In this document: in pieces, positions 119-61,560 of the stretch
Position numbering within the stretch: position 1 is the stretch's first letter
Layout: each line of letters starts with the position of its first letter
Source: Aporrectodea caliginosa
Lineage: Eukaryota > Annelida > Clitellata > Crassiclitellata > Lumbricidae
Assembly: GCA_020284085.1 (NCBI GenBank)
Contig: JACEVL010000690.1
Span: 947,001-1,011,000, forward strand
Length of the DNA stretch: 64,000 nt
Direction of reading: 5' to 3'
The notes under the pieces: model-generated
Database searches by the model: none
What the model saw: the letters and a program-made list of their open reading frames with translations, nothing else
Told to the model about the DNA's origin: nothing
Translations under genes and position numbers: made by a program

Positions 119-770
119 AAATCCAACAGCTCCAGTGGAAGATTATCCAGCTAAAAACGAAAATAGTTTGTTGTCATATTTCTAGACCGTTAGGAGAAAA
201 AATCCACAAAATACAGCGTGCAACCAATGAAAAAAACTAATTGGAAAGGTAAAATTCATGTAGGGTCAATTATGGAATGTTTCTTCTTTAAAGCTTGTAT
301 TAGGTCTAATTAATGCTGGAGGGATTTTTTGCCAATCAACTGATTTAAGAACTGGGGTTATGTGGTGGTGATTTGGAGTTTTAAGGACTGCACGGATAAG
401 ATGCCAAGTGGTAGGGTGCTCCAGACGGCTCAGCATCAGCGAAAACTAATTGAGCCATATCGTCAAGTTCTCGCTGCTCAGATAGGCAGGACACCAATGC
501 AAATGACGCTGGCTGTGGAATGCTGAAATCGGCGTGTATAGCCTAATATTGAGAATGAAATAGTTTGTGTAGACATGGCTACATAACTCTGGATGACAAG
601 TTAGTAAAAGTCAGTTCAGTTCATCACGCATTGTTTCAGGCTCTGATTCCCGTCAACGAGTAATTCGTTGACGGGAATCAGGACTGCAGGCTATATTTTC
701 TTAAGTATGCAACACCAGATAGAAAACCGTGGTAGAATTTAATGTAGGTGTACGCTGATTGGTAGGCCTA
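119..770. other. No gene seen; contains a perfect 17-bp hairpin
   Basis: No coding sequence is supported. A perfect inverted repeat sits at 643-659 and 665-681 (CTGATTCCCGTCAACGA, loop GTAAT, then its complement). Nothing else in the stretch is recognisable. Confidence 0.6.
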
Positions 771-2058
771 CAGTGTGATTCTTGTTAACGATGACAGAAC
801 GAAAATGTTCGTTAACGAAAATAAAATGATATCGTTGACGATGCCAATGACTGTAACTAAAAAATATAATTAGCTATATCTATAACGCAAATAAAACAAA
901 CGAAAATTCATCGTTATTTTCGTTAAAAGAAATAAAATAAAAACTGCAATATTAACAAACATAAGAAAGTGAAAATGCGCTACAACTAATAGCCTATGTT
1001 CGCCCCAAACATATGCTATTATGGATTTATGAATTAGTTCCATTTTGTTAAGTTTAGTTAGGCCCTATTTTGTAAACGTTTCAATAGCGATAGCGGCTGA
1101 AGTCGACCGGCACAAATTCGCAAAACAAGTAGGTCTAATCATAGTAGTCTTGTAGTCAAAATGTCTCTTAAGAGCTTGAACGGCCGCATGCGTGGGAATG
1201 CTGTCTAGATTCATATCAAGTACGAATCAATCAAAAATAAAAGTTCGTGTTTCATCAGCGGAAGGGAATGTTATGTGGCCTGTTCATATCCCGTAAAAAC
1301 ACGACTAATCTACTCAATCATCTCAAGTACTACCGTACTTGGTCCATCCGTCTACATACAAAGAAGTCTGGCTGCAGGGAGTGATAAAAAAGAGGTGTAT
1401 ATATTAAGGAAACTCCGAGTAGGCAATCAAAACTGGTGAGATAATAGTGTGTAAATGGCTGTGTTTATCAATGTGTTTGGTGATTTTTACGGACAACTGG
1501 TCTCTTTGTTTGTAGGTGTCATTATTCCGGGTTATAGAAATATTTATCTCTGTCATGCATTTAATAAGAGTGTTTCAAATAGCCGTGCTGCTGATGCAAT
1601 ATTTTATATTACGAGACTGAGGAATAATACATTTAAGAGATTGAGGGCTGTTACAGCTAATATAATTATCATTAGGTTAATTTATTCTTTATTTTCAATA
1701 TGAAAACAATAATTTAAAACCGGGGAGTAGTAGGTCATATACTCTGCAATGGTTACAATCAATCATTTTCATCATCAGAATTGATGAATTTTTAGCATCA
1801 AGGTTACGTGTTTTCATGATGCTAAAAGCACCCCTTCTTCAAAGTGTTACGCGTCCTAATATACAAAGCTGCTGCGTCTGAAGGCAATATCGCTTAGCCT
1901 TGTTGTAACTAAGTAGCAACTAAAATAGAAATCCAGTAACTATAACTATAACTATAACCAAAAAAATACTAAATATAACTGTAACTATAACTGAAGTTAA
2001 AAACCGATAGGGCCTAATAACTGTAACTAAAATAAAATCTGTAAAGAGAATCACACTG
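771..2058. mobile_element. Nonautonomous hAT-like element (CAGTGTGATTCT ends)
   Basis: The left end CAGTGTGATTCT at 771 is matched by AGAATCACACTG ending at 2058. The right flank GATTGGTA (2059-2066) recurs on the left at 757-764, but there it is separated from CAGTG by exactly six bases, GGCCTA, which look like a later insertion at the TA ending the duplicated target. Inside are AT-rich runs of TAACTATAAC and TTAACGAAAATAAA type and no credible coding sequence. The 8-bp target duplication and the CAGTG start fit the hAT superfamily. Confidence 0.55.
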
Positions 2059-2066
2059 GATTGGTA

Positions 2067-3653
2067 TGCAGCGGACTCAACGATATGCAAACATCATGAT
2101 TACAAACGATGATGGCAAGCAGCTGAAAAAACTAAGGTTCTAACAACCATATCAACAATCTCTCTCATGTGTAAGGCGCTAACTGTGATGAGTGCGAGTG
2201 TGATACAAACATAAATTCACAGAGACCTGGTTTGCCGGCAATTAATTAAAATAAAATCGAACAGATTTTATCTCATTAACCTGGTTTTGAAACCTAATTT
2301 ACATCGTTAACTACATGTAAGTTACACAGACAGGCTCAAGTTGGTAGTTATCTAGAGTTCCAGAGATGTTGATATCGCGAACATTGTTTCTTAGCCATTA
2401 ATTTTTATTTACTATTAAGTAGTTTGATAAAATTGTTTCACAACCTTACCGTTGTCTTGGAAGGTTGATGATCTCTTTCTGTTAAAATAAACATTGTGAA
2501 GATTCATTTAGCCCAAATGTACTTAACTTAGGCCTAATGTTTATTGTATGTTCGCATATAATTATAATGAAAGTTATAAAATTAATTTTACTGGCACAGT
2601 AGAAACTTCTCGGTAATGAGAAGCTGAACTGATAATCGGTAAGATTAGCCAGAAATCAAAATCTGATTGCATTCTGAGAGGAACTGATCGGTCATTGAGA
2701 TCCGAATATTTGCACGATCGTCATCAGGCTGAACCTCAACTATCAGAGCGAGGGCTTTCATCTAAGATTTATGTATATATATTCGTTTATTTCATAAAAC
2801 AACAGGCAAACGGCTGTAAGTGAACAATAACAGTAGATAAAGGGTTATAGAAGTAAAACATTAAATATTTAATATTGTAAAGTAATAACAATAAAGTAAA
2901 ACCGCGGTAGCCTGTTGGGTGCAATGCTTCAGGTTGACGATGTTGAACGTTAGAGACATTTTCAGATAATTGGTTACCAGTTCGCAAAGGCGAACGCCGG
3001 AGGTATAACGCCGATTGTTTAGTTTACTTAGTTTGATAACCACTGTGTATATCTTACGAATCCCTACAAACACCTAACATACATTGGCCGAGTAATGGTT
3101 CCAAATTTACAGTAGCGCCATCTTTGGGACTTACCAATGACAACGCGATTTATTGGTATTAATCCAGTTCTCCCACTTCCCAAATGTCTCACCATCCACC
3201 AACCGACATTTTCGCTGCAAAATAAGCAATCCATAAATTTTTTAGTTAAACTGTTTTCGACTAATTAGGCCTATCTTCTCTCGGTTCAGGCAAATATTCA
3301 GCCGAAGTGTTTACTTAAAGAACTTGTCTTGGGGCTGAACGCTATTCTGGCTGAAGTTCCAACACAACAGCAGAAATCTACCAACTGTATTAAGCACCGG
3401 GTTTGAAAGTATGCGCAAAATGAATGCAAACGCTTTAATTGTTATACTGCCCTTATTGGTGAAGGTTTATAGGTCATTAAGAGTTCGTGATATTAACCAA
3501 AAGGGATTGAGATAAAAAGAATTGTCGACGGTATAATATCCTGCCCTTTATGTTAGTGAGAAATTGTTGCACATTAAAGAACTTTTTGTATGCTTTTTCA
3601 CTTAACTAATAAAACTACCAATAATTATTTTCTGTTGTACAATGTATAGTAAC
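2067..3653. other. Noncoding stretch with a retroelement tail near 2.77 kb
   Basis: No convincing gene. At about 2769-2840 there is a TTCGTTTATTTCATAAA segment followed by CAACAGGC..GGCTGTAAGTGAACAA. The same block recurs at 61.59 kb and in shorter form at 6.78, 42.97 and 47.98 kb. It looks like the 3' end of a non-LTR element on the minus strand (AATAAACGAA then A-rich). The rest shows no recognisable structure. Confidence 0.5.
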
Positions 3654-3987
3654 CTGATGTTCACGAAACAACTTATCTCCATTTTATCTCCTCTTTTACA
3701 TGTAAACTCAAGCTCTGCTGGGAAAGGATCGACTTCTGTGCTGTTTTCTAATCTCATTAAATCCAACTCTGTCCAATCGTATACCTCTTTGTCATGTACT
3801 ACACCTAGCTCCACTGCTGTCAGAAAGTCTGCTAGTCTTTCTATCTCTAAGCTATAATCGATGAGTGCATTTCCCACTCTTTTCCTCGCCAGTCTTTGAC
3901 TTTCTAGGATGCGATCGAGTTCTCTTTTCTCTCTGCAATTCATCTGTTTGGGATCGAAGTCACGAACTGCGCGCAATATAACTTCCT
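3654..3987 (-). CDS. Candidate exon of an unidentified gene (downstream exon)
   Basis: An open minus-strand stretch of about 111 codons with charged, alpha-helix-like content (CREKRELDRILESQRLARKR, then IERLADFLTAVELG). It starts after a good acceptor, pyrimidine-rich sequence ending TTTCCAG at 3988, and could end at a CAG/GTTACT donor at 3654. Joined to the candidate exon at 5774-5843, the split codon G+AG keeps the frame. I do not recognise the family. An accidental open stretch remains possible. Confidence 0.4.
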
Positions 3988-4637
3988 CTGGAAATAAAAT
4001 CACAAAAACATCTTAACACCTGCTAAACGAATCCCTAAAAATTATGACGTATCGCATAAGTTGGGGGAACTTCAACCTAAGCCCCAAAGACAAAATTAAT
4101 GTCTTACTTTGACTTAGTTTACATAATTGTTTTTAAAGTATTTCTTTATTTCGGTACAATTTAATCTTGATACATGTTTATGGGCTATACTGTTACAGTA
4201 GCCTACGTGACAATACAACGGATTTAGAAGCTGCAACTTATTGCACAATTACATATTGTCAATCTGTGTCTGATTATAAAATACATATTATTTTAGTGGA
4301 AGGTGATTCTTGAGGGACGACGCGAAAGAGCAATGACTTTTTGAGATTTACCTTCAGTTACGGAAGTTGCTTGAGATGCCAAGTCTTTCCTTCTCCTTCG
4401 TTGAAGCATAGACAAACACATAGTGTCGTTGCAAGCCTCACGCGATAAACGTTCCATATGTACCTTTGAATGTCAATTAGGCCTATGGTTATTAGAATTT
4501 GTTTTTATCATGACTCAGGTGAGATTCGCTGATTTCATTGAAGATACTGACTTTCTGAATAAACTTCAATGTCTACCCTATGTTAACCGCTATTATGCTA
4601 GCCCTCTGATAGGTCTTCATCGAGTGAAATAAATTAC

Positions 4638-4814: not shown

Positions 4815-5773
4815 TAAATGACCCGATGGAAAGACTCTAATTTAGCTATAAATGCATATATTATGTATTGTGAATAATTGTAAATACTTGCAGAAATTCT
4901 AGGACTAACATTCTTAACGCACAAATGCCATAAGCATTAATGGATCAGCCATGCAGCGAATTATGAGTTGGCTAGATAGTCTCTTTTGAGTTAAACTCGT
5001 GCAGCTTAGGCTAGTGTGTTAGTAAGTTAAAGACGCGTACTATAAAGCGAATGCTGCTAGCAATTGGTTACACAGTGAAAACATGTTTAGGCTCGTTTGT
5101 CTCAAAGCTGAGAATCGTAATTCGTTCTTATTGCTTAGACAATTTATATGCATTTCCATGCGAGTCCTATAGGCCTAGTACTATTGAGTTTGCAAGTTTT
5201 GTTTCCATTCATATTTTTGTGGATGTGTGTTGATTTCAGCGCCAATTAATATAATATTAGTTTCTTTAATTAGTCGAAATACCAATCAACATGCTCCTGG
5301 TAATGATGTGGGTTTGGAGTGTCCTTGATTATTGCTTTCTGCATTCAATTACAGCGCTATATAAGTTATTAAATTAATACTATTGTAACTCACTACATAG
5401 ACTATAACTGCGGTCGCCATTCGTTCTTCCTTCCTCTTATAATATAAAAAGTCAGTGTGCGAATGCCCTACAAAGTTACTCTATAGCCATCAAACATGAC
5501 TTGTAATATTCGAATATAAAAATTACACAGACTTACCGTTATTAACCTAATAATACCTTAATATTATAATAGGCCTACAATCAAAGTGGCAATCTAGGTC
5601 AAGTGATATGCTGCAGGTGTGAGCTACATGTATTCGCAGGTTGGAACCCAAATCTGCAAAACTTCAAAGGTAGCCTATAGTTCGTTTTATTGTTTTATGT
5701 AGAAAAATGTACATGCACATAACAGAACAAACGATGTTAAAGTAGGGCCTACATATAATTTTTGATTGTATAC

Positions 5774-5843
5774 CTTCATCCAAAACAGGTTTGAAAACCT
5801 TCACGATGGTTCCTTGCTTGGCGATTAACTTAACAGAGAAGTT
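5774..5843 (-). CDS. Candidate short middle exon of the same unidentified gene
   Basis: A 70-bp minus-strand segment translates to NFSVKLIAKQGTIVKVFKPV then LDE and ends at a strong GATGAAG/GTATAC donor. It leaves one base (G) that pairs with the AG opening the exon at 3987. The acceptor side (GCGCAAAG) has a weak pyrimidine tract, so the 5' boundary is uncertain. Phase agrees with both neighbours. Confidence 0.35.
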
Positions 5844-5982
5844 CTTTGCGCTTTACGTTTCGTTGATCGTAGGCCTACACGACACGATCTCGCTTGAATG
5901 TTAACACTGGGAATTCCACTGGGATTGTAAAATTGCATTAGAATTTCCATCAGCAAACAATCCCTGACAGCTATTATTATAC

Positions 5983-6300
5983 TTTAGACTGAATATAATT
6001 ATTTTCGTTATCGAGCGATTGTTTGTCTGTCTGGACTTCTACAACTGTACGCAGAATAGCAGATGTTTGTCCATCAGTTTCCGAGGAGTAATTGGTGGTG
6101 TTCGTTTTCTTTCGTAGAGATTTTGGTGCTACCTTTACTTCGTGCAGATCTTTTCGCCCTTCAACGAGAGTGATCTGGTTGTGCCTTAACGTATTTAATA
6201 ATTCAGAATGGTTGATTCGCTCCAGCCAGATAAATTGCAGCCAAACAGAAGTCGAGGAGGAAGAACGAGAGATTGGTTGCTCATTTAGAGATGGCCTCAA
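5983..6300 (-). CDS. Candidate upstream exon of the same unidentified gene
   Basis: An open minus-strand frame of about 106 codons contains WLERINHSELLNTLRHNQIT, then a Lys/Thr/Ser-rich tail. It can splice after ..NNYIQSK at AAA/GTATAATA (5983) in phase 0, matching the next exon. No in-frame ATG lies inside the open stretch. The frame stays open upstream, so the true start would be in another exon or the stretch may not be coding. Family unknown. Confidence 0.3.
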
Positions 6301-6763
6301 TCGATAGGGGCGCCATGTGTAGGCCCTACTGAGAACCTGAATTAATTTAATGTGCTATAAGATAGACAGACATTTTGACGCCATGTTGCAGTTTCCACTT
6401 TATGTTTTTGCGTATTTCAACAAATAAGACCAAATTTAATATATGTAATTCGAGGTGGCCAATGGCCATTACATGACGTATTATTATGAATACAGGATCA
6501 CGATTCCAGTGTTTTGCCTATTGTAATGTAAGGCAATGTATTGTAATGTTATGCGCAGGCTTCCATTTAAAGCTCCATAAAAACAGGTTCACGAGTCGTA
6601 ATCGTAATCGTAATCTCCAAACTTCTAAAGCGCCACTGGAAAGCCAAGCGCAGGGCACCAGCTTATTCACGAGCGCTGCGTCTAATCAGAAGGGTTGTCC
6701 GAAAGAGTAGTCCGAGGGAGGTCCGAGTCCGGTTTCCAGAGGATCAGAGGGGTCAGAGTAGCT

Positions 6764-7695: not shown

Positions 7696-8669
7696 CCCTC
7701 GGGCTACCAAGGGGGGAGGGTGGTTGCCACCCCCTAGGTTTTTTTCATCTCAAACTTTTTCCGTATGGAATAAAAATTTGACCTTTTAGGTAGCTGTAGG
7801 GGGTTCACTTACACACGTTTTGAGGTAAAATGTGAGATGATATCTCACACCGTTCAAAAGTTATACCCAATATACCCGAGGTACCAGAGGGGTGGATACC
7901 ACCCCCTAGATTTTTGACTATATCTTATCTGTCATTTAATATTAAGAGACACAAATAATACCATTCTATAGAGGGAATGTGGGGCTACATTTCTATGGTC
8001 ACTGAGTTGACCTGAGACAACCGGAAGTGCTCAAAATAAATAATAATACGCGTAATATGCGTGAAAAATGGCTGAATGGAAGCACTCCCCCTTAGTTTTT
8101 GTCTGTAGCATATTCATTTGTCTTCCTGGAAGAGAAACAAAGATACCATTCTTTAGAGGGAATGTAGGGCTTCATTTGCATACCTACATCTTTGTCTTTT
8201 GAATACCGGAAGTGATCAAAATAAATAATAATACGCGTAATCTGTCTGTGTGAAAATCGATGAATACGGCATTACAACGTAAAGCGATATATATGTATGG
8301 ATATAAATGTATGGATGTACATTTATAGGCTACTATATAAACATGTGTAGGGATGATTGTTTGTATCTTTTATACATAGATTAGTTTTAAAACACACATA
8401 ATCTTATATTTGTTTATCCAAAAAGTACAAAATGTACGCAATAATATACAATATTGCTAATTAATGGGTTCCGTTGTTAAAAGTGATGTAATTTCGAGGT
8501 GCATTCACATAATGTACAACTAAATATACCATTCTGTGCAGAAATGAATGCTGAATCCATTGCTATATTACAAGTTATGATATGTAAAACCAAACACGAA
8601 ATCCAGGGGGGGTGGTAACCACCCCCCCTTGGTAGCCAGTGTTACAAAAAAAGCTTGGTAGCCCTAGGG
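7696..8669 (+). mobile_element. piggyBac-like nonautonomous element, copy 1 (974 bp)
   Basis: Flanked by TTAA on both sides (7692-7695, 8670-8673). Ends are CCCTCGGGCTACCAAG and, inverted, CCCTAGGGCTACCAAG (15 of 16 match). TTAA duplication and a CCCT start are hallmarks of piggyBac. The interior has about three related modules, each opening with a GGGGTGGT/ACCACCCC palindrome. Two modules end in CCGGAAGTG.TCAAAATAAA and an ACGCGTAAT word. No transposase. Copies 2 and 3 (33997, 44766) are in reverse orientation. Block D has the empty TTAA site at 35535-35538. Confidence 0.9.
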
Positions 8670-8903: not shown

Positions 8904-9252
8904 CAAGGCCATTACTTTTATCCAATAGGCACAGTAGGCACTGTGCCCAGGGCCTTCGAAACTTTTAAGAGCCTAGGCAAGTCGGAAAATCAGATAGGCC
9001 TTTTGAGAAAATGGACATTTCAAATTCTAACTTAGCCTAATAATTTTTGTAATTGTACTGAAACAGTTTAACTTTAAGATATTAACTTAAAGTTATGATA
9101 TGTGAAATTATTGGATCTTTCTATTAGCAAAAATCACATATAACGTCAGAGTTGGCAGTTGGGTCTATATAAGAGACTAGAGTAGGCCTTTACGTAGGCC
9201 TACTACGAATGCAAGACTGCCTAGGGCTTGTGACGACCTTAAAACGGTTCAG
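8904..9252. mobile_element. Old hAT-like element predating the C/D duplication
   Basis: Flanks TCTACATT (8896-8903) and TCTACACT (9253-9260) match at 7 of 8. The left end CAAGGCC..., better preserved in block D as CAGGGCCGTTTTATCC at 35802, matches the inverted right end CTGAACCGTTTTA. The same insertion lies at the paralogous site in D, so it is older than the duplication. Confidence 0.55.
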
Positions 9253-9589
9253 TCTACACTTAGGCCTAGTTCTCTTCCTGCATTCTTGTCTTCATAATTA
9301 GGCCCTATTCATAGGCGCAACCACCCTATGGGACCCGTGGGACGCGTCCCCCCCAACTTTCGAACAGGTTGGGACGGCCATGGACGCGTCCCCCAACTTT
9401 CGAACAGGTTGGGACGGTCCCCGCCAACTTTTGAAAATTGTGAGGCAAACAAGAGCCAAAAATGAACACCATTTGGTATCAAATGCTCAAAATTGCTTCG
9501 GCTTCTGGGGCTCCGCCCCAGACCCCGATGGGGGTACTTACGACGCTTCCCATACCGCCTATAGTCGTTAGGAACTTCTTGCCTTCTGC

Positions 9590-10970: not shown

Positions 10971-12022
10971 TACTTTTATATCGAAATCATCGGTGAAAAA
11001 TTTGAGGTAAATAAAAGCCCAAAATGTACTCCATTTGGCATCAAATGCTCAAAATTCCGTCGGCTTCTGGGGCTCCGCCCCAGACCCCGATGGGGAGCTT
11101 ACGACGCTCCTCCATACCCCTAGTCGTTAGGGGCTTCTTGCCTTCGGCAATCGCAGCTTCGCGCCTTCGGCGCTCGCAATTCCCCCACTCACACATTCTA
11201 GTAGGTCCCCCCCAACTTCTGGACCGTGGTTGCGCCTCTGGCCCTATTCAATAGTTTTAAAATTGTTACAAACTTCTTATGTTCGGTCGAGGTCTTGATG
11301 CGTGTAAAATACTCAGCAAAATTGTATCAACATAAAGGCGGTAGTCTGGTGCAATGTAGGTCTAAACGTCTAAATAAATGTCCAACTGAATTTGACAACT
11401 CTAAAAAATAATACGATATTAACTCATTGTTGGCATAATAGCCTACGCACCAAAAATGATGACGTCACTATTTTCAGTGACCAATTATGTTAAAGTTAAC
11501 AAGTTGCTGTTAAAACATTTAAATCATGCTAATTTTTCGACTATATTTTAATCAGTTTTCACAAATATATCAATTGTTTTCCTTTTTCTGCAGAATATTG
11601 TCTTATAATTATTAGAGTTAAGTCTCAGAACTGGCGGACGGCAATTATTAATATTTTGGCGTTTGCATCATTTTGTCATTCGTTATGTTTTCAATATAGG
11701 CCTACACGAGAAATCTCGCTAAATTTCTTCTCTATGTCAACTATTTCAATGCATTTTGCAACCATAGGATATCGCTATCACGAGAGTAACAAAGTGGTGG
11801 TGACAATCCATCCCATTCCCTCTGCCCTTTTCCTACGCCTACCCTTATCATCCCCTTATCTAAAATTATAATATACGACCCTAGTAGGCTCTGTCTGCCA
11901 CTCGCACATAACAAAGTAAGCTTACATGTTTACATTCTGTTTCACAACTGTTAATCAGTTGACGAGAGCGAGACCACCACAATAGAACTAAACAATAGTT
12001 CTTCGTGAAACTTACTTCAAAC

Positions 12023-13143
12023 CATAGAACGAGTATGCGCATATTACGAATATTAATTTGTTTAGAAATTGACGAATATTAAAACTGGCCAACGAATATT
12101 ATAAATATTAAATATTTTATTGTTTTATTTCTTTTAATTCTTAATTGTAAAAAAAAATCAGTGCCAAAAATATGCATAGGAACAGTTACTTATTGCAGTT
12201 ACTCATCTTATAATTAGTAGCTTCACTGGGTTTATTGTTCGAAGTGTCAAAAGGCTATGCAGGCCGGGACCGATCTTGCGGAATTCACATTTTGACGCCC
12301 AAACAAGCCACAGCTGCAGTATTAGCACACAGCGACTCAATGACTCAGCCTCCTCCTTTCCCTACCCCTCAGCACTAAGCGCATCAACGTGAAACTGGAA
12401 CAGAGAGGGAGAGATCGTAGAGAGACAGACAGAGACAGACTAAGAGAGAGAGTGTGTGTGGGTGTTTGTGTGTGTGAAAGAAAGAGACAGACAGACAGAC
12501 AGAGATACTCTGAATCGGTATCGGTTCATCTATTTTGTCTGAGGACACTTTTATGATAAGACTGCTCACACACGAACGTTAGGTGGTGGTATCCATGTAT
12601 ATTTACTGCATGCTGCTTGTATACGGAGAATGGCAGTCATTTATATGTATACATAACCGCCAAATGGCTGGCGGTAGAAACTGACTATGATGATGATAAA
12701 TCACTATTAAAATTCAGCGCGCATTTGATACTTTTTACTGTAGGCCCTATTAGTGTTACCAAAACCGTTGTGGGGCAGCATGAACCCGCCTTGGCGCCAC
12801 AAAATCAAAACTTGTGTGAGCTTCGGCATATTTAGGTTAACGGTCCTCTGGTCGTGGTCGGCTTTATTTACAGAGTTCCTCAAGAGTAGGGCAACCTTGG
12901 GTAGGAGGGCTAAGCGTAGGCTGCCAGCTTACGGACGACAGCACTAAGTAGGCCTATAGCACCGCAAAACCACTGCACATATTCTTAAATTAGTAGGCCT
13001 ACTCTTAAATTAGTTCGTAAACAAAGCGGAAACAGTGACGTCATCAACGAATATTTACGAATATTTACGAATATTAAAAATGTCCTAATATTCACGAATA
13101 TTTACGAATATTAAAGCCTGAAGTCACGAATTCTCGTTCTGTG
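12023..13143. mobile_element. hAT-like element, ACGAATATT-rich subterminal regions
   Basis: Ends CATAGAACGAG and inverted CACAGAACGAG. Exact 8-bp duplication CTTCAAAC at 12015-12022 and 13144-13151. Both subterminal zones contain clustered (T)ACGAATATT words. The middle holds a GAGA/GTGT/GACA microsatellite (about 12400-12505) and no credible gene. The same 8-bp target in block D (38891-38898) is occupied by an unrelated hAT element. Confidence 0.8.
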
Positions 13144-13331
13144 CTTCAAACCAAAAGAACAATGGTCAAAAGTGGTGGTGATTGTTAGCCTATCGCCACT
13201 TTTAAAAGTGGTGTTGACCGGACAATACAATACACTCTAAACCCGAACCTTGTCAATTGGTAAGGTTAGGCTTACTTTCCCTTGTCCACTGGGTGGTTAT
13301 GATAAGGCCACCCATATAGCAACCTGCGCAA

Positions 13332-13778
13332 GTTACTTTGAAAGTAAGCTGCCTAGGTTACCATATGGCAAGCTCTTCATACTTCGAAAGTAAGCTGTCT
13401 AGGTTACCATATGGCAAGCTCTTCATACTTTTAAAGTAAGCTGCCTAGGTTACCATATGGCAAGCTCTTCATACTTTTAAAGTAAGCTGCCTAGGTTACC
13501 ATATGGCAAGCTCTTCATACTTTGAAAGTAAGCTGTCTAGGTTACCATATGGCAAGCTCTTGATACTTTGAAAGTAAGCTGGCTAGGTCACTATTTGGCA
13601 AGCTCTTCATACTTTGAAAGTAAGCTGTCTAGGTTACTACTTGACAAGGTCATGATACTTCAAAAGTAAGCTAAGCTACTACTTGGCAACGTCATGATAC
13701 TCTGAAAGTATGCTGTCTAGGATACTACTTGGCAAGTTGAGTATACTTGAAAGTAAACAGTGTAGGTTACTATATGGA
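13332..13778. repeat. 46-bp tandem repeat, about nine to ten units
   Basis: Each unit contains CTAGGTTACCATATGGCAAG, CTCTTCATACTTT and GAAAGTAAGCTG. The first six units are nearly identical and the right-hand units diverge progressively (TACTACTTGGCAACGTCATG). The ACTTTGAAAGT part is palindromic. Units are directly repeated without spacers, so this is a satellite, not a CRISPR. Confidence 0.9.
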
Positions 13779-22692: not shown

Positions 22693-22693
22693 T

Positions 22694-43205: not shown

Positions 43206-44470
43206 CTGAAAAGGCTGATTGATCTATACTTTCAGTATTTGGTGGCAGCGGTACTATGGTCGAGCGCAGGCTATCTTCGGGGGTTTAGTTGCACAAGCAC
43301 GTGGGTTGAATCGAGCAGAAACACACAACGAGACGATTCGTTTGACGAAATTCTTAGGCTATACGAGAATATGCACGACGTATATTTACATAACAACAAT
43401 TATCAGAGTGACGTTGACGTTAAGAAGACCGCGGTCGCAGTCCTCCGATCCTGCTCTCTTGGTCCTCTCTCGCTTTCTTCTCCGACTCTCTCTTCTCCCC
43501 TTCTCCGAAACCCCAAGAGTTCCCTTGCTTCGCGTCGAGAGCCCCGAGTCAAGAGTCCCACGGCCTCGCAAAGTCAGGTCTTGTAAGAGGTCCTCTACAG
43601 AGCGACGCTCGGATCCTGCTCGCTTCCCGTGACTCTTCCTCTCGCTCCAATCTGCTCTCAGAATCCCGACCGAATAATCCTCTCTTCCGCTTTTTCCCGT
43701 CTTTTCTATCGCCACCGCCTGTCAATCAACTCTTTCGCCCCCCAACCGCACCCTGCAGTTCGTTCCCTCTTGCCTTGCTCTGCTATCTGCCTTCTCTCCC
43801 CTCCACCCTTTGACAGGCGTGGCCTTCGCCTCCGCTCCCCTAGGTATGTCGTCAGCTGTTGGCTGTCAATCATTTCAACTTACAGTCAGTCAGTACTGCA
43901 AATCTTAATTTAGTTCATGAAGTGTTCGTTCCTATGCTAACACAATCATATAATGACAACTTTATAATAAATCTATACTAACATATACTAATCTAATATC
44001 ATCGTGGCAGCATCTCACTAAAATACCTGTTTTTTTAACAAAGAGAATACAATTTTATAGCCTACTGGTCTCGGGAATGGTAGGCTGTTCCAATATGATA
44101 TTTGTTCCCGCACGTGTCAATGTTGAGAGAAATCGAGACAGGCAGAGCGACAAACTCATCAGTCTGATACTGTGTCTATGCTTAATTCATTGGTATGCTA
44201 CTTGCTGGTCATTTCCTTGATTAAAGCGCTCTAAAGTCGTACAGTTTGATTCATTGCGCCCTTAAGTTAGGAATGTTACCATCTGTCTGCATCGCTTAAG
44301 TGAAATTAAACCACAGGAGGTTGCATAACGGCTACAATTAAAGTTTCCAAAAGATATTATCTTTCTGCTACATCCGTAAACCTCAAACTGAAAGACTTCC
44401 ATTTTATACTACAGCACTGCAAGAGGGAACGGATGAGGACTGGTGCTGGAGTACTAAAAGGGATTATGAG
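43206..44470. other. No gene recognised; pyrimidine-rich stretch 43.43-43.85 kb
   Basis: A C/T-rich segment (CTCTCTCGCTTTCTTCTCCG and similar) gives overlapping open frames in several phases on both strands, as expected from biased composition; I see no protein family. The end of the stretch (44409-44470) is a diverged copy of 46049-46102 (TACTACAGCACTGCA ... ATTATGAG), a local duplication. Confidence 0.5.
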
Positions 44471-46019: not shown

Positions 46020-47374
46020 ATTATGAGTAGGCCTAGGCCTATATGCTGTACTACAGCACTGCAGGAGGGCACTGATGCAGGAAGACTCAAAGCGATTATG
46101 AGTAGGCCTATATGCGCTATGGAAACGAGACTAAGAGAAAAATGGAGTAAGGTATCAATGGTGGATTCAGAGGCCCCACTTGCCATAATTTATATTCTGA
46201 CCTACAGGATCCACCTCTGTCGGTCGTGACTGTATCCACGACCATAAATAAAACGTTGCTGCGCTGCAATCATGCACTGTGATACAAATCATGAAAATTG
46301 ATTCTTATTGACGAATGCAAATAATAATATTGAAAAATTACTAATAATTACTGGAGGTGAATTGGATTTCGTTCATAATAATGTGGATAAATAATGCAGT
46401 TTGAAATTTAGAGTATGCCTACGTATATCGTGTGTATGGTGTCTCAGGAGCTATGCGCCTATTTTTAGGCCTAATTTATCCAAACTATTCACTGTTACAG
46501 GCATATTCTATTAATGCCCAGTATTTACATCAGTTTGACTTAATTTTAACATTTTGCAGTCGGCGACAAATAAAATCACTTTTATATTGGAGTCCTTAAT
46601 TGGTTCAACCATGAGAAAGGCCAGGCACGTCACCTTTCGAACCGCCGTTGTGCCAGCAGCGCGGAGAAAAGTTGAGGCAAGAGGACTCAACGGCCTGGTT
46701 TGCAGGGGAAGCCGCAGTATGCTAAACAAATAATTATACGCAGAACGCTGAGCAGAAAGAAAATCTCTGCGCAGAAAAGATTATCTCGGTCTCTCAAGAG
46801 AGGACAGAAAGCGACCTCATTCGTTGTTCAGGTTGAGGATGCCTGCAGTGGGATTGGATCGCATGGGATGCGAGAGTAGGCTACCTGACACCGACTCTAC
46901 TCTAGCTCGCACATAGATCAAGGCAGGCGTAGACCCCGGTCGCGCAGCAGCGTCAAAAAGGGTAAAGTACACCAACATCACCGGTACCCCATGCATCTAT
47001 GCGATCACCTTGCAGACCAGTGACGCATGGAGCAAGAAAGGACAGTAAATCAATTAGAGTTATCAAATTCTAAAGACTGGAAATACTTGCAACAGAAGCG
47101 ATTATGATAAGATCACAAAGGTAGTAAGGAGTTTGACTTTAAAACGTTTTACACGTTAGAAAGAGAATTTTAAACTAACTCCGAGCAGTTAATAATAATA
47201 ACAATCTTCGATCGATATTTTAAAACTGACAATTACGCAGTATGATTACAAATCAGTATGAACGGATGATCACAAGTTATTACAGGAGTGGAATTTAACT
47301 GTATACGGCAGCCATGCAATTCGCCCATCACGTCCTACATCTCATTTTACCAACGCCATTTGACGAATGAAAAG
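46020..47374. other. No gene recognised
   Basis: Begins with two local repeats of ATTATGAGTAGGCCTA...CTACAGCACTGCA type (46020-46115), which differ by one extra GGCCTA. The remainder, including the more GC-rich 46.6-47.0 kb, shows no family or structure that I can identify. Confidence 0.5.
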
Positions 47375-48030: not shown

Positions 48031-49022
48031 AACATGAGGGATAATGGATAATTAAAGTTCATTGGAAAATATTAGAATAAACTAGTAAATATTTTTATAA
48101 AATGATCTGGGAATAAATTGAGAGTTGTTCTTGGGTGGGAGAGTATGGTTGTGTGCTCTAGGTCTTAATTGGTGGGAGGAAAGGGGTCGGAGTGGAGGTA
48201 GGAGTTGGTGAAGAACATGCTTAGGATTAATGCTTAGTACATACTTCGGTGTGTCAGTTTGAATTAAAAATAAACACGACTATTATGTTGTTCGTATTTT
48301 CATTTAAGTCGTCTAAAGTAGCTCGACGTTATTGCTCGTCTTCTGTTTTCGCCACGCTTCTCCTGTCTGTCTTACGTAGGCCCTACTGACCTTCTGGATA
48401 TAAACCTCACCACGGCTTGGCTGATGCCTTGTTCACTAGATATCGACAGTGGTTAAAGCGGTCTTATTATTCTTTGAACGTGGAGCTCTATACAGCCGTG
48501 TAAATAGGTATGCTAGGGTTTCCTTAATGTTAGCAGCTCTGCAATTTAACATAATAATGTCCAATGAACGAGACTGCTGCTTCTCCACGCTCCCGGAGGC
48601 GGGACTCTGGTGGGCCAACAGATTCCAGTTCAGAGTTGGCAGTTGACGTATGATCAGTCGCCCTTCTGACTTAGCTTCAGGTGACTCGGTAAAATCTAAA
48701 GAGTCAAAATCAACAACTAATGTATCAGCTAATAACCACGATCAGAAAACATATCGGGATTGACTGATTGATGAATGACTGAAAAAATGAATGAATTTAT
48801 AAATGAATTTATAAATTTATTTAATAAAACTAATGAATGAATGATTGACTGACTGAAGTAATAAACTGCCTAAAGAAACTAGTTAGCCTAGGTCTGAAAT
48901 TGGATCGTGGCGTTCTAGCTATAGCTATGCTCACAGCCGAGGGTCGCATTAATTGTAATCGTTTGTGAGTGACTAAGCACAGCCGTACGTCTCTGGATGA
49001 CAACGGCTGGATGAGCTGTAGA
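48031..49022. other. No gene recognised
   Basis: AT-rich noncoding sequence including short AATGAATGA/ATAAATTTA repeats at 48.76-48.85 kb. No family recognised. Confidence 0.5.
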
Positions 49023-50231
49023 CAGGGCCGGCCTTAGGCACAAGCAAAGCAGGCAGTTGCCTGGGGCGCCAAGATCTAGGGGGCGCCATTTTCACAAAAA
49101 TCTTTCTAACAGTTTTATATTTTTCACCCTTTTAGCAATTTTTTCAATTACAATAATTATTTTCATTTTGAATTCAAAACTTTCGATTATAGAACAAATT
49201 TAAAATAATTGTTGATTCCATTGCACCTTTTCAAGTAAGTAGGGTCCCTACGCGGCAGCTTGAGGTGGATTCGAATCAGCAACCCTCCGGCTGCAAGGCA
49301 CCGAACATACCACTACACCACTGCGTGTCTGTAATATTAGTCCTGACAGTGCGTAAATCTGATGCAGTGATGCTGATACAGTGACATATTTCGGCTGAAA
49401 ATGCCAAGAATTGAAGAAATATTGTAGAATATTCAATCTATGTAGGCCAATCTTTATTTGTTGACTGCCGAGCAGACATTGCAGTTGCATAAATTAGTTA
49501 AGTACAAAATATGTACATTTACATCTTAAGTAAAATAACAGTTTTCTTAAATAGGCCTATATCTAAGTCAATTTATAGTTTCTATCTTATAAAATTGAAA
49601 TTTTAATTTAAAAATTATGTGATGCCCTATGAAGCGTCAGAAGTAATTGTATGGGTAGTCAAAATTGTAAGAAGAAAAAATAAGAAACAGAAGTTAGTAT
49701 CAAAAATAAAAACGATGGCTTTCCAACTATTTCAACCAAATTGAAACTACTTTAGCTGTTAGTGTTAGCACCCAGTCATCTGCTTTAGTAATTCGTTCGT
49801 AATACAGCCTACTAACATTGCAGGTAAAACATTGCTTAAATTGCTTTCAGCTTTATTGTGTTTTGATAAACCGAAACCTGATGGAGAAAAACTGCAAGCA
49901 GAAAAAGATTTCTGATTACTTCAACAAAATAATAATTATTTTACGATGCATATTTTTTGTTTTGTTTCGGTAATTCGAATTTTTCGATAATTCAAACTGT
50001 TTTTGCTTTTTATCATTTCTAAAAATTCAAATTATCCAGGGTTGAGTGTACTGATAAAAAGGTAATAAATAACTCAGTTGAGCCAACTTGAGCGTAGGGG
50101 CCTAATTATATAATAATGTTTATGGTTGGTTCATCGTTGGGTTGTGACGTGAAGTGGACCGTGGAGTGGGAATCAGAGGGCGCCGAAGGTATGCTTTGCC
50201 TGGGGCGCCATTTGGGCTAGGGCCGGTCCTG
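49023..50231. mobile_element. hAT-like element (CAGGGCCGGCC ends)
   Basis: Ends CAGGGCCGGCCTTAGGC and inverted CAGGACCGGCCCTAGCC. Flanks GCTGTAGA (49015-49022) and GCTGTTAC (50232-50239) agree at five to six of eight positions, as expected for an old insertion. Subterminal GGGGCGCCA words occur near both ends. No transposase is visible. It contains a SINE head at 49243-49335. Confidence 0.75.
49243..49335 (-). repeat. tRNA-derived SINE head
   Basis: On the minus strand, GTGGTGTAGTGGTATGTTCG (A-box like) and GATTCGAATCC (B-box like) are spaced as in a tRNA, followed by GCCGCGTAGGGACCCT, the word that starts the SINE piece at 36.87 kb. Truncated after that word. Confidence 0.65.
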
Positions 50232-51144
50232 GCTGTTACAGTAGATTGAGGTCAACAGTAGCCTGTTCGTAGCTATGCGTCTGCATTCTGAGTGTGTGCG
50301 TTGTTATACTATGGGTTCTAACAGACCAAGCTAATTTTTGCTGTTACTGGCTAATAGCACCTATAATTGTACGTAACGGGCTAAACTGCATCCGGGATAA
50401 CATTCAGGTTGGATTACTGACTATGTTTCCAAGCGTACGTCACAATCACCGATCTATTTCCATTTAAAAAAATGTGCATAATATTATTCAGCGGCAGGGA
50501 CGTCGTGCGCAGAAGAGAACCTTGTGTTGTGTCATGTGCCTTTGAATTACAATCCAGTACGTTAAACAATAATTAGAGAAAATCCCCCAGTGTACATTTT
50601 TACGCTAGACTATAATTCGTGTACACGACAGGCGAAGGATACAGCTCGAAGTCCTTTAGATCTATCGCGTAGGTGATTACATTAATGGATATAATTTTAT
50701 GTCGGGATCAAGGTAAGCAGTTAAAAGTTAAAGACGTTTTGTCATAATTTGATGTAGTATGTACTCTGGGCAAACTTATAGTATCGTGGGCTGAAGGATT
50801 ATACAGTATCTCTGGGCATGCTGCGCGAACGCCGGACGATACCAGGTTTTCTAATGACGAACTAACCTTAACTCTGACCCTAACCGACACTTACGACGCC
50901 TAAACTGACCCTAACCGACACTCACGACGCCAGTAAACTGACGCACCATTATCCTTCAGGTCCCGATTTCATAAGCTTGCCGTACTCTGTGCAATGTGTA
51001 AGAAACAAACGAAATAGACCATAGAAGTTTCAAGTTATGCATATATTTTAGGCTAAAATCTGTGTCGTGCTATCTCAAACTGTAAACAGCTCACTTGACC
51101 TTGTTTATCAGTTCTTCGGAAAAAGCGAAGTTTACGTTGCCAAA
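50232..51144. other. No gene recognised
   Basis: A short stretch with CCCTAACCGACACT(T/C)ACGACGCC repeated twice (50.88-50.93 kb) is the only structure noticed. Confidence 0.5.
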
Positions 51145-51660
51145 TTAATTTATAAAGGGCCGATGGCAAACCGATGGCACACCAAAACCAAGCCGATCAC
51201 GGAAAATGACTGTCGCCAAGGAGTCGACGTCAGACAAAGGAGAAAATCCTAAGGAGATGCATTTTGGTAAAGGGATCCAGTGGTTTAGAACCTCACTCAT
51301 GTAGTGTAAAACACGATCAGATTTGGCAGAGCCGCCGATAAGGCTCGCGGCCGCCTGATGAACACGCTCGAGCCGCTCAATCCGAACCCGTGGAAGACCG
51401 GCGTAGATGGAAAAGCAATAATCAAGACGGCTCAGCGCGAATGCATGAAAAGAGTAAGTGCTGCATTGAAAGTCAGAGAGTGTGAAATCACCCAAAGTTG
51501 TGGGAGCTGGTTAAAGCAGCTCCGACTTACTAAGTCAATAATTATGTCGGGCCATTGAAAGTTCCTGGTCGATTAGGATCCTCAGGTCGCTCACGTACGT
51601 AGAAATTGTCAGTGCGGAAACTCCAGTCAAAGTTAGCTAGCTTCTGTATGATACCGAACC
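51145..51660 (-). pseudogene. LINE ORF2 C-terminal fragment
   Basis: Minus-strand frames give VRDLRILIDQEL-like remains, then ALSRLDYCFSIYAGLPRVRI, ERLERVHQAAASLIGGSAKS and DRVLHYMSEVLNHWIPLPKC, typical of L2/Rex1-type LINE ORF2 after the RT core. Frameshifted and truncated. Confidence 0.75.
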
Positions 51661-52269
51661 AAATGAACCCGGGTTTTCAGACCGTTAAGGCGGGGTCTAC
51701 TTCACGACATTCAGACAGCAAACGCGTCCATTACCACGAATAGCATATAACAGCAGATGTAGTGCTGTGTATAATTGGCTCAGCATAGGGCCCGATGGAT
51801 ATTGACAGGGCATACGCAAGCACGCGTGACGTCACAGATGCCGGTCTAGTGCATGTAGCTGTTGCTGCTACCCCGTGTGTTGGCAGTTTAAATAATCACC
51901 TAACGTAATAAACCACTCCGCGAAATAGATACGTAGCCAAACAGGAGCATAACACTGTTGAGGCCAAATATTTTTTTAAAATAAAAATTGTGGGCTGTAA
52001 GTTTCTTTATGATCCCGTAATATTACCTGCCAAGTTTTATGACATTTCGAAAATATTTAGGGGTCCCGCAAGGCTCATAGAGTTAGTGCAGTTTGTCGTA
52101 AATTACGCATGGCATCATTGACTTTTAAATATTTAGGTGACAACATTTTGATCCCATAATTACATGTTTAGTATCACTATAAAGCTCTTAAACAGCAGAA
52201 TCTACAGATTTAACCTTCTTGTATATTATATGCATAAAGTTTCAATTATGAAGAAGACATAAAGCACAC

Positions 52270-54380
52270 TACCAGAAGAGATCAAATTTTTTGGCTTGCA
52301 AATCAAGGAAGACTTTCGAGCCTTTAAATCTGTCGGGCACTGGGAAGGCAAGCTGCTCCCTGACATAACTGGAGTAAACACGGACAAAGTGAACCGATGG
52401 TCAGTCCTGATTTCTTCTCTAGTTAATAGAAATACTAAACTTCTGGGTGTGCCAAAGTTGGCTTCTGTGTCAAGACAGGCAGCAGCAGTACCAGTTCTAG
52501 ACCATATGAAGTCGTGGCAGTGCGATACATTTATTATCGGCATGTGTTTTGACACAAGGGCCTCAAATACCGGCAGAGTTAATGGAGCCTGCACCCTTCT
52601 AGAGGCAGCCACCGGTCGTAATCTGCTGCAGATGGCTTGTCAACATCACATGTTTGAAGTCCTGTTGTCTTATATATATTCGTAGTGTGCCTTGGTAAAG
52701 TTTGTCCATCAACTGGGGAGGCATTCTTCTCTTCAAGCGATTTAAAGATAAATGGTCCGACCTGGCTCACTTTCAACCAAAGCCTCATTAATGTCTGTCT
52801 GTGTCTGACAAACTGAAGGAGTTCATTACATCCGTGTTTGGATTGAGCAGTTCGACAGCGGTTCGCAAGCCTGGTGCCCCTCTATAGAGCGCGTTGGATG
52901 GCGAATGCATTATACTCAATGAAGATTTAGTTGCGTTTTGATGGAACCCAATCGGTTATCCAATTGACGGCCCGTGAATTACAGGGCATCCACGATTTAA
53001 CATTATGTTTTAGTCAACATCTGCATCCAATCGTGGTTTTCGTGTCGAGTCACTGCTGATTCACCCATCAATGACATTCAACTAATAATAAAATACAGCC
53101 CGTAAAAACAAAGTTTTTACTATATCCATCTGGTATCCTATAACGTGTACTCTGAAAATAGTCCGCGTTCATTTTACAACATAGCACGCTTAATGAGGCA
53201 GCGCGCCCATTATTGTTGCAGCCAATGACAACGCTGGCCAATGGCAACGCTGCGTGTGGGAAAAGGGGATTCCCCGATTCGAAAAGTTGAGTCCCCGATT
53301 CTATAAGCTAGCCTTTTTGGGGGAGCTGAAATTTTGATAGAATGAAGTGTGTGCGAGGGCGAGTCTATCTGCCAAGTTTCACGACGATTGAATGATTGTA
53401 AGTGATCGAACTAGTCGTCGCAAGATTTGACTTTTTAGCCTGTGGCTCAATCAAACAAGCAAGCAAGCAAGCAAGCAAGATTCCCGCAAGTTAAACTAGA
53501 TGGATAATAAAATACAGCCCGTAAAAACAAAGTTTTTACTATATCCATCTAGTATCCTATAATGCGTCTTATGAAGCAGTTACCTCTACAAATATATAGT
53601 CCGCGTTCATTTTACGACTGCGGCCAATCACAACGCTGGCCAATCACAACGCTCCGTATCGGAAAAGGGGATTCCCCGATTCGAAAAGTTTAGTCCCCGA
53701 TTCTATAAGCTAGCCTTTTTTGGGGAGCTGAAATTTTGACAGAATGAAGTGTGTGCGAGGGCGAGTCTATATGCCAAGTTTCACGACGATTGAATGATTG
53801 TAAGTGATCGAACTAGTCGTCGCAAGATTTGACTTTTTAGCCTGTGGCTCAATCAAGCAAGCAAGCAAGCAAGATTCCCGCAAGTTAAAGTAGATGGATA
53901 AAAAGACTGCAATATTACGATGCTGCTGCTCTGAAAACCACTGAAGATGATGCTGTGTCATTCTTGGTACCTAAGCCAAGAGCTGGAAACCCTCTCTCTG
54001 TTCTCACACAATCTCTCTTCTGAAGATAAAGCACAGCTTATGTTGACAATGAAAGGTGATCGAGGATTGCACTTTGTTCAATCTCTTTCCCGTACGAAAA
54101 GGGAATTATATATTTCTCGAAGCTTCTTCCGAACTACCGCCAACTCATCGTGGCTTGTACCCTCGATATTCCATGTGAATAGTGACCCAAAGGCCAATTG
54201 TATAAGATCGCATGTCAGCTTGTTAATAACTTTGCCTGTGTAAATGACAATGCTGAGCTTGGAGTTGCTCTTATACAGAATTTCAATTTAACAAGAACGA
54301 AGAACAGAAACAGTTTCTTCTGCAAGTTGTTGAAAAACACAGGCATGACTTTTCTAAGTGCCATCGTGACAATCTTGTAG
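52270..54380 (+). pseudogene. Relic of a multicopy uncharacterised protein (U1 coding region)
   Basis: Readable parts in order: LLPDITGVNTDKVNRWSVLI, LLGVPKLA, FIIGMCFDTRASNTGRVNGA then CTLLEAATGRNLLQMACQHH, and FKRFKDKWSDLAHF. After an insertion comes QLVNNFACVNDNAELGVALI then LLQVVEKHRHDFSKC-like remains. From memory this is an uncharacterised, intron-poor protein found in many copies in invertebrates. The CFDT, HH and ND..ERG patches suggest an RNase H-like transposase fold (inference). Stops and shifts throughout. Confidence 0.6.
53088..53905. repeat. Tandem dimer of a ~410-bp repeat inserted in U1
   Basis: Two direct copies (about 53088-53495 and 53503-53900) share AATAAAATACAGCCCGTAAA, AAACAAAGTTTTTACTATAT, GGAAAAGGGGATTCCCCGAT and a CAAG microsatellite near the end, each closing with GTTAAA(C/G)TAGATGGATA. 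The GTAAAAACAAAGTTTTTAC word is palindromic. Confidence 0.8.
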
Positions 54381-56300: not shown

Positions 56301-56849
56301 CACTCGCCAGCAGCTAATTAAACTTGATTACGCTTTACTTGCAATCGGTTCATTCAGTTTACTTTCTCGACAAACTGGGTGTTTATTTTTGTAACTATGA
56401 GAACAAGGATGGATGCATAGTAGGGTGGCCCTTAGCATGCAGCCAAAAATTAAAAATCATAAAATTTAGTCTGGCATACGTTCAATCCATGTCAATTATT
56501 GAAATAAAATTCTGTGACAAAAAAACTTTGGAATTGTTTAACATTTAGGGGTGACCCTCGATCTCTGAAATTTGTTATGTAATACGATTTTGCGATTTGA
56601 ATCACAAACTTTAAAAAAATTTATTCAGCACAGATTTTTCACTAAGATGGCTAAGAAATATAGGCCTACTAGTACTACAACAATGTCAATGAAATTAGTG
56701 TTCACTGTTCAATGCTTGTTCAGTTATTGTTCACTGTTGAACTACTTACTTCAGTGAAGTAATTATCAGTTCACTTCAAGACAATGTAAGAAAGTTATCA
56801 TTTTCCATGCCAAAAGCCCAACAGTGTTTGTCCATAACTTAGAAGGCAC

Positions 56850-59710: not shown

Positions 59711-59834
59711 GACACCAGAGATATCAAGGAACCAATTCATGCATCGGGAATTTCGCCATCCTTCACAGGTGGAACTGGGTAAAAGAAGATGTGGGAGAGG
59801 GTGGGTCAAGTGGGAGAAAGACCGAGCTTCTGTG

Positions 59835-60152: not shown

Positions 60153-60559
60153 AGAAAAATGTCATAAACAGATTCTGACAAACAAATATCCATAATTATT
60201 AAACTCTTCCGAATAATGAGGTAAATAATATTTAAAATATGCATAAATATGACAAGAAGTATGCTGACTGACTTTCTAAAGAAATATTTTAATCCTCGAC
60301 TTTACAGAAATCACTGAGATGCACTAGGCATATAACGCCATGTCGCCATAAGAAGATCGTACGACAGACCTCTGTTGATTGGTTGAATATGATGGCCGTT
60401 CAGTGATCTGAAAGCGTTGGTGACCGAATTTAATTAATTAATTTAACCTGTCACCCGTCTCATCTGCAGTATGGCTAAGGCAGCATTGTACACAACGGAA
60501 TCATTTGCCTATCTGAGTAATAAGTACTTATCTCCGCCAGCAAAAAATAAATAAAGAAC
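60153..60559. other. No gene seen
   Basis: AT-rich sequence between the NHL relic and the inverted exon-like segment; nothing recognisable. Confidence 0.4.
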
Positions 60560-60760
60560 GTCATGTGGTCAAACAGCGTCGACCGCTTTCCAGAGTTGCA
60601 GCTATCTAACGAATTAGTAGGCCTACATGCAGCCAGGATATCTGTTCCTCGGTGGGTTCGGCTGGCGACCACGACGGCATCATCCCCACAGCAGCTACAG
60701 AACCTTGCGCTCTTTGGAGTGGGTGATGGCATCGGTCAACATCTGTGTGACCCTGCAAAT
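60560..60760 (-). other. Exon-like segment, inverted paralogue of 62.79-62.99 kb
   Basis: On the minus strand it reads GDDAVVVASRTHRGTDILAA, related to the plus-strand VKPSLVACRTHRARDLSAS at 62.91-62.97 kb. Both are followed by a CTGCAAC word. The relation may be coding or a shared 5' region of NHL genes. This copy has a TAGGCCTA word (60618-60625) where the other has TA. Confidence 0.45.
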
Positions 60761-60826
60761 CTGTCTGTGAGACGAGTTCTGCCAGGGAAAGTTAATGAAG
60801 TAATCCACAGGACAAACCTACTATAA

Positions 60827-61560
60827 TAGCTCTGAAAAAAGAGGGCGGCGTACGACCAACAGCGGAATGGCGGCGAATTGCACGAATTAGAACGCGTTGG
60901 CATGGTCAAGAAACAGTCCAGAGCTGTAACAATTTGCTCACGCAGTCTACTCCATTCGTCCGCTGGTTGTTTAATCTAACATCACTCGAACGGTAGGGGT
61001 AATTAAGCATCCATTGGACTTTTTTAGAATATGCGTTCTTTCATAACTGTTTTTATTAATGGCCATATATTGACACGCTTTTTACTTTCCTGCAGGCATC
61101 CAGAGCTGCGCCAGAAATAGCAGCAGCTCATAAAAATTCTCTAAATAAGAAAATCGGAATGGGGTCAAACGTGCATGCTGTGCTGGTGAAGAGAGATGAA
61201 ACGACCTCGTCAAATTCTGTGACTTTTAATACATGAAAACGGCGTTGAAGTAGGCCTACTCTGGTTGAGCCGAAAACTTTGTATAGCTGCGGACATCAGA
61301 ATCTTTCGTTATCGAGTGGCGAAGATAATCTTCTGAACGAAAAATGCCCTGCGAACTACGTGATCTGCACAATTTATGGCTGAGATATCATTCGAGAGCC
61401 TCCCACGTTTTTAAATTACTGGAAATCATCAGTAATGTTGATTCTTGTTCTTGAAACATTCACGCCTCCTACGAGGAATCTTGACAAATACAACTACGGG
61501 TGATAGACCAGAGCTGTCAAGCTTGCACAAGTTCTGCGTCGCACGACCAAATCATTATAG
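60827..61560. other. No gene recognised
   Basis: Noncoding between the inverted NHL-associated segments; nothing identifiable. Confidence 0.5.

Follow-up and report, generated by a model that had tools for sequence, protein, structure and literature searches.

Recurrent TA-flanked GGCC insertions in the Aporrectodea caliginosa genome are probably excision footprints of TA-targeting transposons

Tc1 itself is among the Tc1/mariner relatives that leave a footprint when they excise. In the available parts of two reports, Tc1/mariner elements are cut so as to leave 3' overhangs of two or three bases, and the scar formed by end joining consists of the duplicated TA and the overhang (PMC3878927; PMC2874221). 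Hsmar2 footprints are described as non-canonical in the accessible portion of the source (PMC3770610), and the corresponding portion of another assigns excision footprints of 0-4 bp to Passer, a pogo-superfamily transposon, and compares them with those of Tc1/mariner elements (PMC9976928). Stowaway miniature inverted-repeat transposable elements of the Triticeae left TA duplications with 1-4 bp remnants of their terminal inverted repeats (TIRs), and at one site the element was putatively lost several times independently, according to the available text (PMC1925063). Here we examine a 64,000-nucleotide stretch of the lumbricid annelid Aporrectodea caliginosa (contig JACEVL010000690.1 of assembly GCA_020284085.1, positions 947,001 to 1,011,000; hereafter the window, whose own coordinates are used without strand assignment), in which the palindromic octamer TAGGCCTA recurs together with the seven-mers TAGGCTA and TAGCCTA and the nine-mers TAGGCCCTA and TAGGGCCTA.

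Like the scars of Sleeping Beauty and its Tc1/mariner relatives, as far as the available parts of those reports describe them (PMC3878927; PMC2874221), these words consist of a duplicated TA around two or three bases that could be terminal element bases; the described cases, however, concern engineered or single elements, whereas the present genome holds about 0.29 million octamers with GG/CC remnants. The Stowaway scars, in the part of the report consulted, lie at one intron locus, against about half a million sites here (PMC1925063). Unlike Passer, the transposon families discussed below have GGG ends and open reading frames (ORFs) of 514-773 amino acids, their pogo-like character being assigned by domains and ends; no GGG end appears in the available portion of PMC7325037. 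The frequency of a single palindromic octamer also recalls HIP1, a cyanobacterial palindrome linked to methyltransferases in the portion of the source at hand (PMC4390886), but the annelid word arises by insertion at TA.

The window contains 29 copies of TAGGCCTA, where Markov models of orders 1, 2 and 3 predict 0.59, 0.66 and 1.47, in agreement with the initial annotation, which had set about 29 copies against about one expected. With a pseudocount of 0.5 the excess is 25- to 26-fold at orders 1 and 2 and 15-fold at order 3, and at each order the word ranks first among all 256 palindromic octamers; among the 16 palindromes of the form xxGGCCxx, its 29 copies (0.66 expected) compare with three for the runner-up. 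Its relatives, previously put at roughly 25, actually number 33 (TAGGCTA 10, TAGCCTA 13, TAGGCCCTA 7, TAGGGCCTA 3), and chance alone would give about 6 of the 23 seven-mers. Expressed as cores between two TAs, the excess falls on GGCC (29; 0.82 expected), GCC (13; 3.0), GGC (10; 3.2), GGCCC (7; 0.03) and GGGCC (3; 0.1), as well as on CGCG (6; 0.35), all six copies of which belong to one repeat family, while the cores GG, CC, GC and CG are close to background. The flanks of the octamers are unrelated by eye, with a mild bias to G before and C after, and the words are thus not a repeat family.

The excess extends over the whole assembly (1.098 Gb in 4,544 contigs), where the count of the reversed word served as control and all the words proved well above it. 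We counted 292,633 copies of TAGGCCTA against 7,583, 336,624 of TAGGCTA and TAGCCTA against 83,297, and 49,566 of TAGGCCCTA and TAGGGCCTA against 2,816. The base between TAGG and CCTA in the nine-mers is selective, G and C being enriched but not A or T (TAGGACCTA and TAGGTCCTA together 7,196, against 7,425 for the control). By arithmetic from a sample-based expectation, about 281,000 octamers, 239,000 seven-mers and 45,000 nine-mers are in excess, in total about 0.57 million sites (roughly 0.5-0.6 million), or one per 1.9 kb.

Paralogous sequence provides the evidence that these words come into being as blocks inserted at TA. The octamer at 36648-36655 corresponds to TA in a paralogue at 11619, and TAGGCTA at 8326-8332, in one of three copies of a TTAA element in the window, corresponds to TA at 34336 and 45095. 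Two overlapping octamers at 46028-46041 (starting at 46028 and 46034, a nested event) have a local repeat at 46103-46110 with one GGCCTA fewer. These pairs and that at 8995/35888 had been proposed in the initial annotation and are present. The octamer at 42260-42267 likewise faces TA at 26701, although the net difference of +9 implies more than one change; the proposed pair 9261/36261 aligns on the right side only, and 60618/62962 gave no same-strand alignment, the other strand lying outside the comparison, so neither was confirmed. Further cases are TAGCCTA at 9033-9039 and 11439-11445 (+5 net against paralogues 35964 and 36465), TAGCCTA at 13186-13192 (+5 net against 39315, where the partner has no TA) and TAGGCCCTA at 36160-36168 (paralogue 9217 is without the 7 bp). 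The octamer at 27014-27021 is shared in part by its paralogue at 42597 (TAGGCCT), and TAGGGCCTA at 35842-35850 faces CAGGGCCTT of the same length at 8933 and is therefore old or not a footprint.

A census of the window and 200 kb of contig C1 recorded 442 distinct differences of 2-12 bp between paralogues, of which 20 are extra blocks that duplicate TA around a core of at least 3 nt made of G and C only. In all 20 the core consists of Gs followed by Cs (GGCC 8, GGC 6, GCC 4, GGCCC 1, GGGGCC 1), and at 5 bp or more no other dinucleotide was duplicated around a G/C-only core anywhere in the census. Blocks 5-7 bp long make up 126 of the differences; 37 of them duplicate TA, 19 with a G/C-only core. 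A 319-kb sample gave a similar contrast for partner states: 34/114 partners of motif words are in the exact empty state and 23/114 also carry the motif, whereas the exact empty state was found in just 45/5,932 partners of other TA-N(3-5)-TA words. The sites thus have TA on both sides and a single TA when empty, with a net gain equal to the remnant plus 2 bp; a gain of 5-7 bp, as first proposed, holds in the paralogue alignments, the census and the comparison of homologues alike. It could be argued that selection maintains the octamer as a site of protein binding or methylation, such sites often being palindromic, or that it is a compositional or microsatellite effect. We find this scarcely credible, considering that it appears in paralogues as an inserted block of 5-7 bp at TA, that the seven- and nine-mers are not one motif, that the flanks of the octamers are unrelated, and that none of the 29 octamers and one of the 62 sites (TAGCCTA at 32628-32634, probably by chance) lie within the eight ORF intervals tested in the window, as would be the case for neutral insertions.

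A comparison of two copies cannot by itself separate gain from loss, and TAGGCCTA might instead be ancestral and have been reduced to TA by a deletion through slippage of one TA on the other. The direction of change could, however, be read at several sites. A hAT-like element at 771-2058 (CAGTG ends, 8-bp duplication, TIRs CAGTGTGATTCT and AGAATCACACTG) is preceded by its left duplication GATTGGTA at 757-764, to which GGCCTA has been added immediately before CAGTG, creating the octamer at 763-770; the right duplication GATTGGTA at 2059-2066 is without the insert, exactly as described earlier, and the element thereby polarises the gain at 763. A search with window positions 5000-6400 returned 14 matches, including two long homologues, L158 (88% identity) and L159 (75-79%). 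The octamer at 5870-5877 is TA in both, that at 5570-5577 is common to L158, TAGGGCCTA at 5743-5751 is TA in the younger homologue L158, and TAGGCCCTA at 6320-6328 is TA in the older L159 and falls in a longer gap in L158. L159 carries private scars of its own; gains have thus occurred separately in homologous copies. TAGGCTA at 5007-5013 has a counterpart of the same length (TGGACTG) in L159, so that it is old or not a footprint. Finally, among 23 sites of the 319-kb sample with at least two partners, five show one scar against at least two empty partners, none shows the reverse, two are mixed (possibly the same site counted once from each copy) and the other 16 carry no information. Together with the rarity of exact loss among other TA-N(3-5)-TA words, the hAT duplication, the two homologues at 5870 and this 5-to-0 polarity make an ancestral TAGGCCTA very unlikely.

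These observations make it probable, on the evidence of the sequences, that TAGGCCTA, TAGGCTA/TAGCCTA and TAGGCCCTA/TAGGGCCTA were left behind as footprints when cut-and-paste transposons targeting TA excised, with pogo-like DDE_1 elements bearing GGG ends as the likely donors. The initial annotation had already read them as footprints of a TA-duplicating transposon, a reading that passes the paralogue, census, partner-state and homologue controls. A transposon of the Tc1/mariner superfamily would insert at TA and duplicate it; on its exit, the transposase would make its cuts some two bases inward from each end, leaving TA and GG on either flank. End joining would then fill and seal the gap to give TA-GG-CC-TA, the TAGGCCTA scar with a net gain of 6 bp, while one base fewer would give +5 (the seven-mers) and one more +7 (the nine-mers). 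Both the position of the cut and the sealing by end joining are inferred, and the joining seems to favour three to five bases in all.

The likely donors would be pogo-like elements, assigned by the Pfam domain DDE_1, whose inverted repeats have GGG directly after TA and of which several families with open ORFs remain. The window contains no donor element by the scans made there, as had been stated before; the genome, by contrast, does contain candidates. A search for DDE_1 gave 150 scored matches among 349 candidates. In a TIR scan of eight fetched DDE_1 loci, in which a flanking TA was required, four had strong TA-flanked TIRs (GGGGAGACTTGGCACC, 22/22; GGGTAGAGTGGGGCAAAA, 21/22; GAGGAGGGCGGGGCAA, 20/22; GGGTCAACTGGGGTAA, 19/22), one had a weak TIR (16/22, GGG) and three had none. 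The strong ends begin with GGG in three elements and GAG in one, and none begins with GGC. The four elements encode ORFs of 773, 514, 652 and 696 amino acids, each with a DDE_1 domain (E-values 1.9e-17 to 2.2e-23) and a helix-turn-helix domain, HTH_psq in three and HTH_7 in the fourth; two of the ORFs also matched DDE_3. DDE_1 and HTH_psq are domains that we take to be linked to pogo within the Tc1/mariner superfamily, and DDE_1 lies here inside the inverted repeats, as is expected of pogo-like elements. A 2-bp TA target duplication was found for the GGG families as well, in a comparison that did not require TA: of 10 ends sought in further copies of the three families, nine were located, and 9/9 directly follow TA with different flanks. 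We searched the genome for one of the end types with a degenerate pattern and obtained 1,180 matches, compared with 17 when the pattern was reversed; other GG-ended families such as that of L165 are outside this count. The 100 matches listed included 28 convergent pairs 0.8-3.5 kb apart. The initial annotation had expected ends reading GG(C)...(G)CC; the GG has held up, but the elements recovered with DDE_1 ORFs have GGG ends in three cases, GAG in one and GGC in none, which makes a third base G more likely than C. The scar remnant matches the TA|GGG ends in its first two bases, the third being ambiguous, and the restriction of the third base to G or C fits GGG ends. We infer that the scars stem from these DDE_1 families or from relatives, since lost, that shared their ends.

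Several observations nevertheless weigh against this attribution. Its weakest link is the connection between donor class and scar: we saw no site that is occupied in one copy and carries a scar in another, and at no site were the empty, filled and scarred states all represented. At one filled site within a repeat, the best 40 of 1,715 candidates included only unfilled copies and no scarred one, and the unfilled copy examined has TC rather than TA; in the 319-kb sample, 0/42 filled/empty differences consisted of TA with GG...CC. Among the 37 TA-duplicating census blocks of 5-7 bp, 18 include A or T in their cores, some of these resembling decayed scars, and of the 114 partner states of motif words 38 fit no class and 19 are of the same length. 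Some other G/C cores between TAs are raised in the sample (for example CCCG, 9 against 1.5; CGG, 16 against 8.6). The core GC shows no excess (53 against 50.5), although it would be expected from independent loss of one base at each end. Genome-wide, TAGGGCCCTA, which cuts three bases into GGG ends should produce, is not enriched (529 against 1,150), while TAGGCGCCTA, which would rather fit GGC ends, is somewhat enriched (732 against 180 for a control with one more CpG). The GGG model leaves the absence of any TAGGGCCCTA or GC-core excess unexplained.

Two other sources of the scars have to be considered in this light. First, the donors could have been other TA elements with GGC ends, extinct or unseen, and cut three bases in. 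Overhangs of GGC would anneal by three, two or one bases to give GGC/GCC, GGCC and GGCCC/GGGCC, which are the five observed cores, without an excess of GGGCCC; the slight excess of GGCGCC is also in its favour. Such overhangs explain the missing TAGGGCCCTA and GC excess better than GGG ends do, but have no known donor here: GGC ends were found neither in those DDE_3 loci whose repeats are clear (CG, CA, GT) nor in the DDE_1 loci (GGG, GAG) nor in a scan of repeat termini, all of them small samples. We regard such donors as unlikely, while allowing them some weight. Second, there may have been no element at all, if a nuclease broke TA sites with a two-base stagger and only Gs were then added to each 3' end by a polymerase before joining. 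The restriction of the extra base between TAGG and CCTA to G or C would follow from this, and filled elements are indeed rare in the sample and GGGCCC is not in excess. Nevertheless, TA-flanked GGG-ended elements with open DDE_1 ORFs do exist, so that no extra enzyme is needed, and the dominance of GGCC probably exceeds what untemplated addition would suggest; an elementless origin therefore appears distinctly unlikely. Footprints of GGG-ended DDE_1 elements remain the explanation we favour.

Other candidate donors were examined and set aside. The only GG-ended, TA-bounded family in the repeat-terminus scan is a 632-bp element at C1:105422-106053 (L131) with TA|GGGGTGTCC ends; in three unfilled paralogues its duplication is about 9 bp, so that the TA belongs to the inverted repeat TAGGGGTGTCC and is not a target duplication. 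The duplicated sequence of this short element is ACCRCACAC, and similar TAG-ended elements lie at C1:121875-123848 and 51009-52602 with duplications of 8 and 9 bp. Going by duplication length, one might guess that the TAGGGGTGTCC element is Mutator-like. DDE_3/mariner elements (17 loci, L141-L157) were rejected because their clear repeats show CG, CA or GT after TA, one end in one family reading TA for CA; four of these loci (L141, L142, L148 and L152) gave no repeat. The family of L141 and L142 (contigs C23 and C200) has 12 equal-scoring copies, two of them 99.7% identical over 2.8 kb, and showed no TA-flanked inverted repeats within 3.2 kb. Pairs of TAGG...CCTA at window positions 52058 and 56546 were not accepted as a donor either, the former probably representing two reverse-transcriptase motifs in opposite orientation. 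ISL2EU/PIF-Harbinger elements duplicate AT or TWA according to the available part of the source (PMC4482050), unlike the scar, which duplicates TA without a third shared base.

Some further words were also noted. In the 264-kb sample of C1 and the window, TACATGTA, presumably the classical Tc1 scar, occurs 31 times against 6.65 expected; three copies belong to a single inverted repeat, others are part of microsatellites, and one pair shows TA changed to TACATGTA (C1:184472). Possibly these are scars of CA-ended elements. TACGCGTA is also enriched, and one TTAA family carries it in 6/6 window copies and 11/13 sample copies (by eye); about half of the copies of TAGGTTA sit in one tandem array. 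A few viral contigs have local clusters of TAGGCCTA, some plainly tandem; one from a viral collection (L080, IMGVR_UViG_3300005669_000010) carries eight copies and five relatives in 7.2 kb with mostly unrelated flanks.

The remaining sites of the window were located by word count. They comprise the octamers at 2529-2536, 3266-3273, 4478-4485, 5170-5177, 9195-9202, 9261-9268, 11697-11704, 12949-12956, 12994-13001, 28007-28014, 33779-33786, 35905-35912, 37188-37195, 37717-37724, 40091-40098, 46466-46473, 49552-49559, 56661-56668, 60618-60625 and 61251-61258. TAGGCTA lies at 33696-33702, 35012-35018, 37553-37559, 38463-38469, 43355-43361, 44696-44702, 46877-46883 and 51049-51055, and TAGCCTA at 539-545, 4199-4205, 5671-5677, 35227-35233, 39913-39919, 43042-43048, 44058-44064 and 48884-48890. 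For TAGGCCCTA the positions are 9299-9307, 12741-12749, 28305-28313 and 48377-48385. The hAT-like element itself contains TAGCCTA (990-996), TAGGCCCTA (1059-1067) and TAGGGCCTA (2008-2016). The window also holds an ORF for a piggyBac-type transposase (DDE_Tnp_1_7; 20950-22833) and a long-ORF retrotransposon without long terminal repeats (RVT_1, endonuclease; 28472-32835), both without TAGGCCTA, a 102-bp GTCA microsatellite (61829-61930) and a 46-bp tandem array (13334-13777). One ORF has relatives among entries labelled as sea anemones (Actinostola, Nematostella), as a sea urchin and as a gorgonian.

In summary, the mechanism proposed for these scars is already known, and it is the load of roughly 0.5-0.6 million that is remarkable; our searches of open-access literature returned no paper describing a comparable one. 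Likely donor elements, as counted to date, are far fewer than the scars, which may therefore record a long history of mostly vanished transposons. A more far-reaching proposal, which we consider improbable, is that they are the main small-insertion mutation of the lineage and stem from excision almost uncoupled from reinsertion, with a pogo-type transposase, possibly captured by the host, still cutting TA|GGG elements, perhaps in a programmed manner in body cells, at several hundred scars per surviving counted end. A short, recognisable, polarised scar at such density would serve as a fossil record of how transposons are lost, a process otherwise difficult to observe. It also touches the open question of how frequently cut-and-paste elements arrive and disappear again with no copies left behind. 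The scars would provide very many insertion markers and would let excision rates, repair outcomes and target preference be measured genome-wide and through time.

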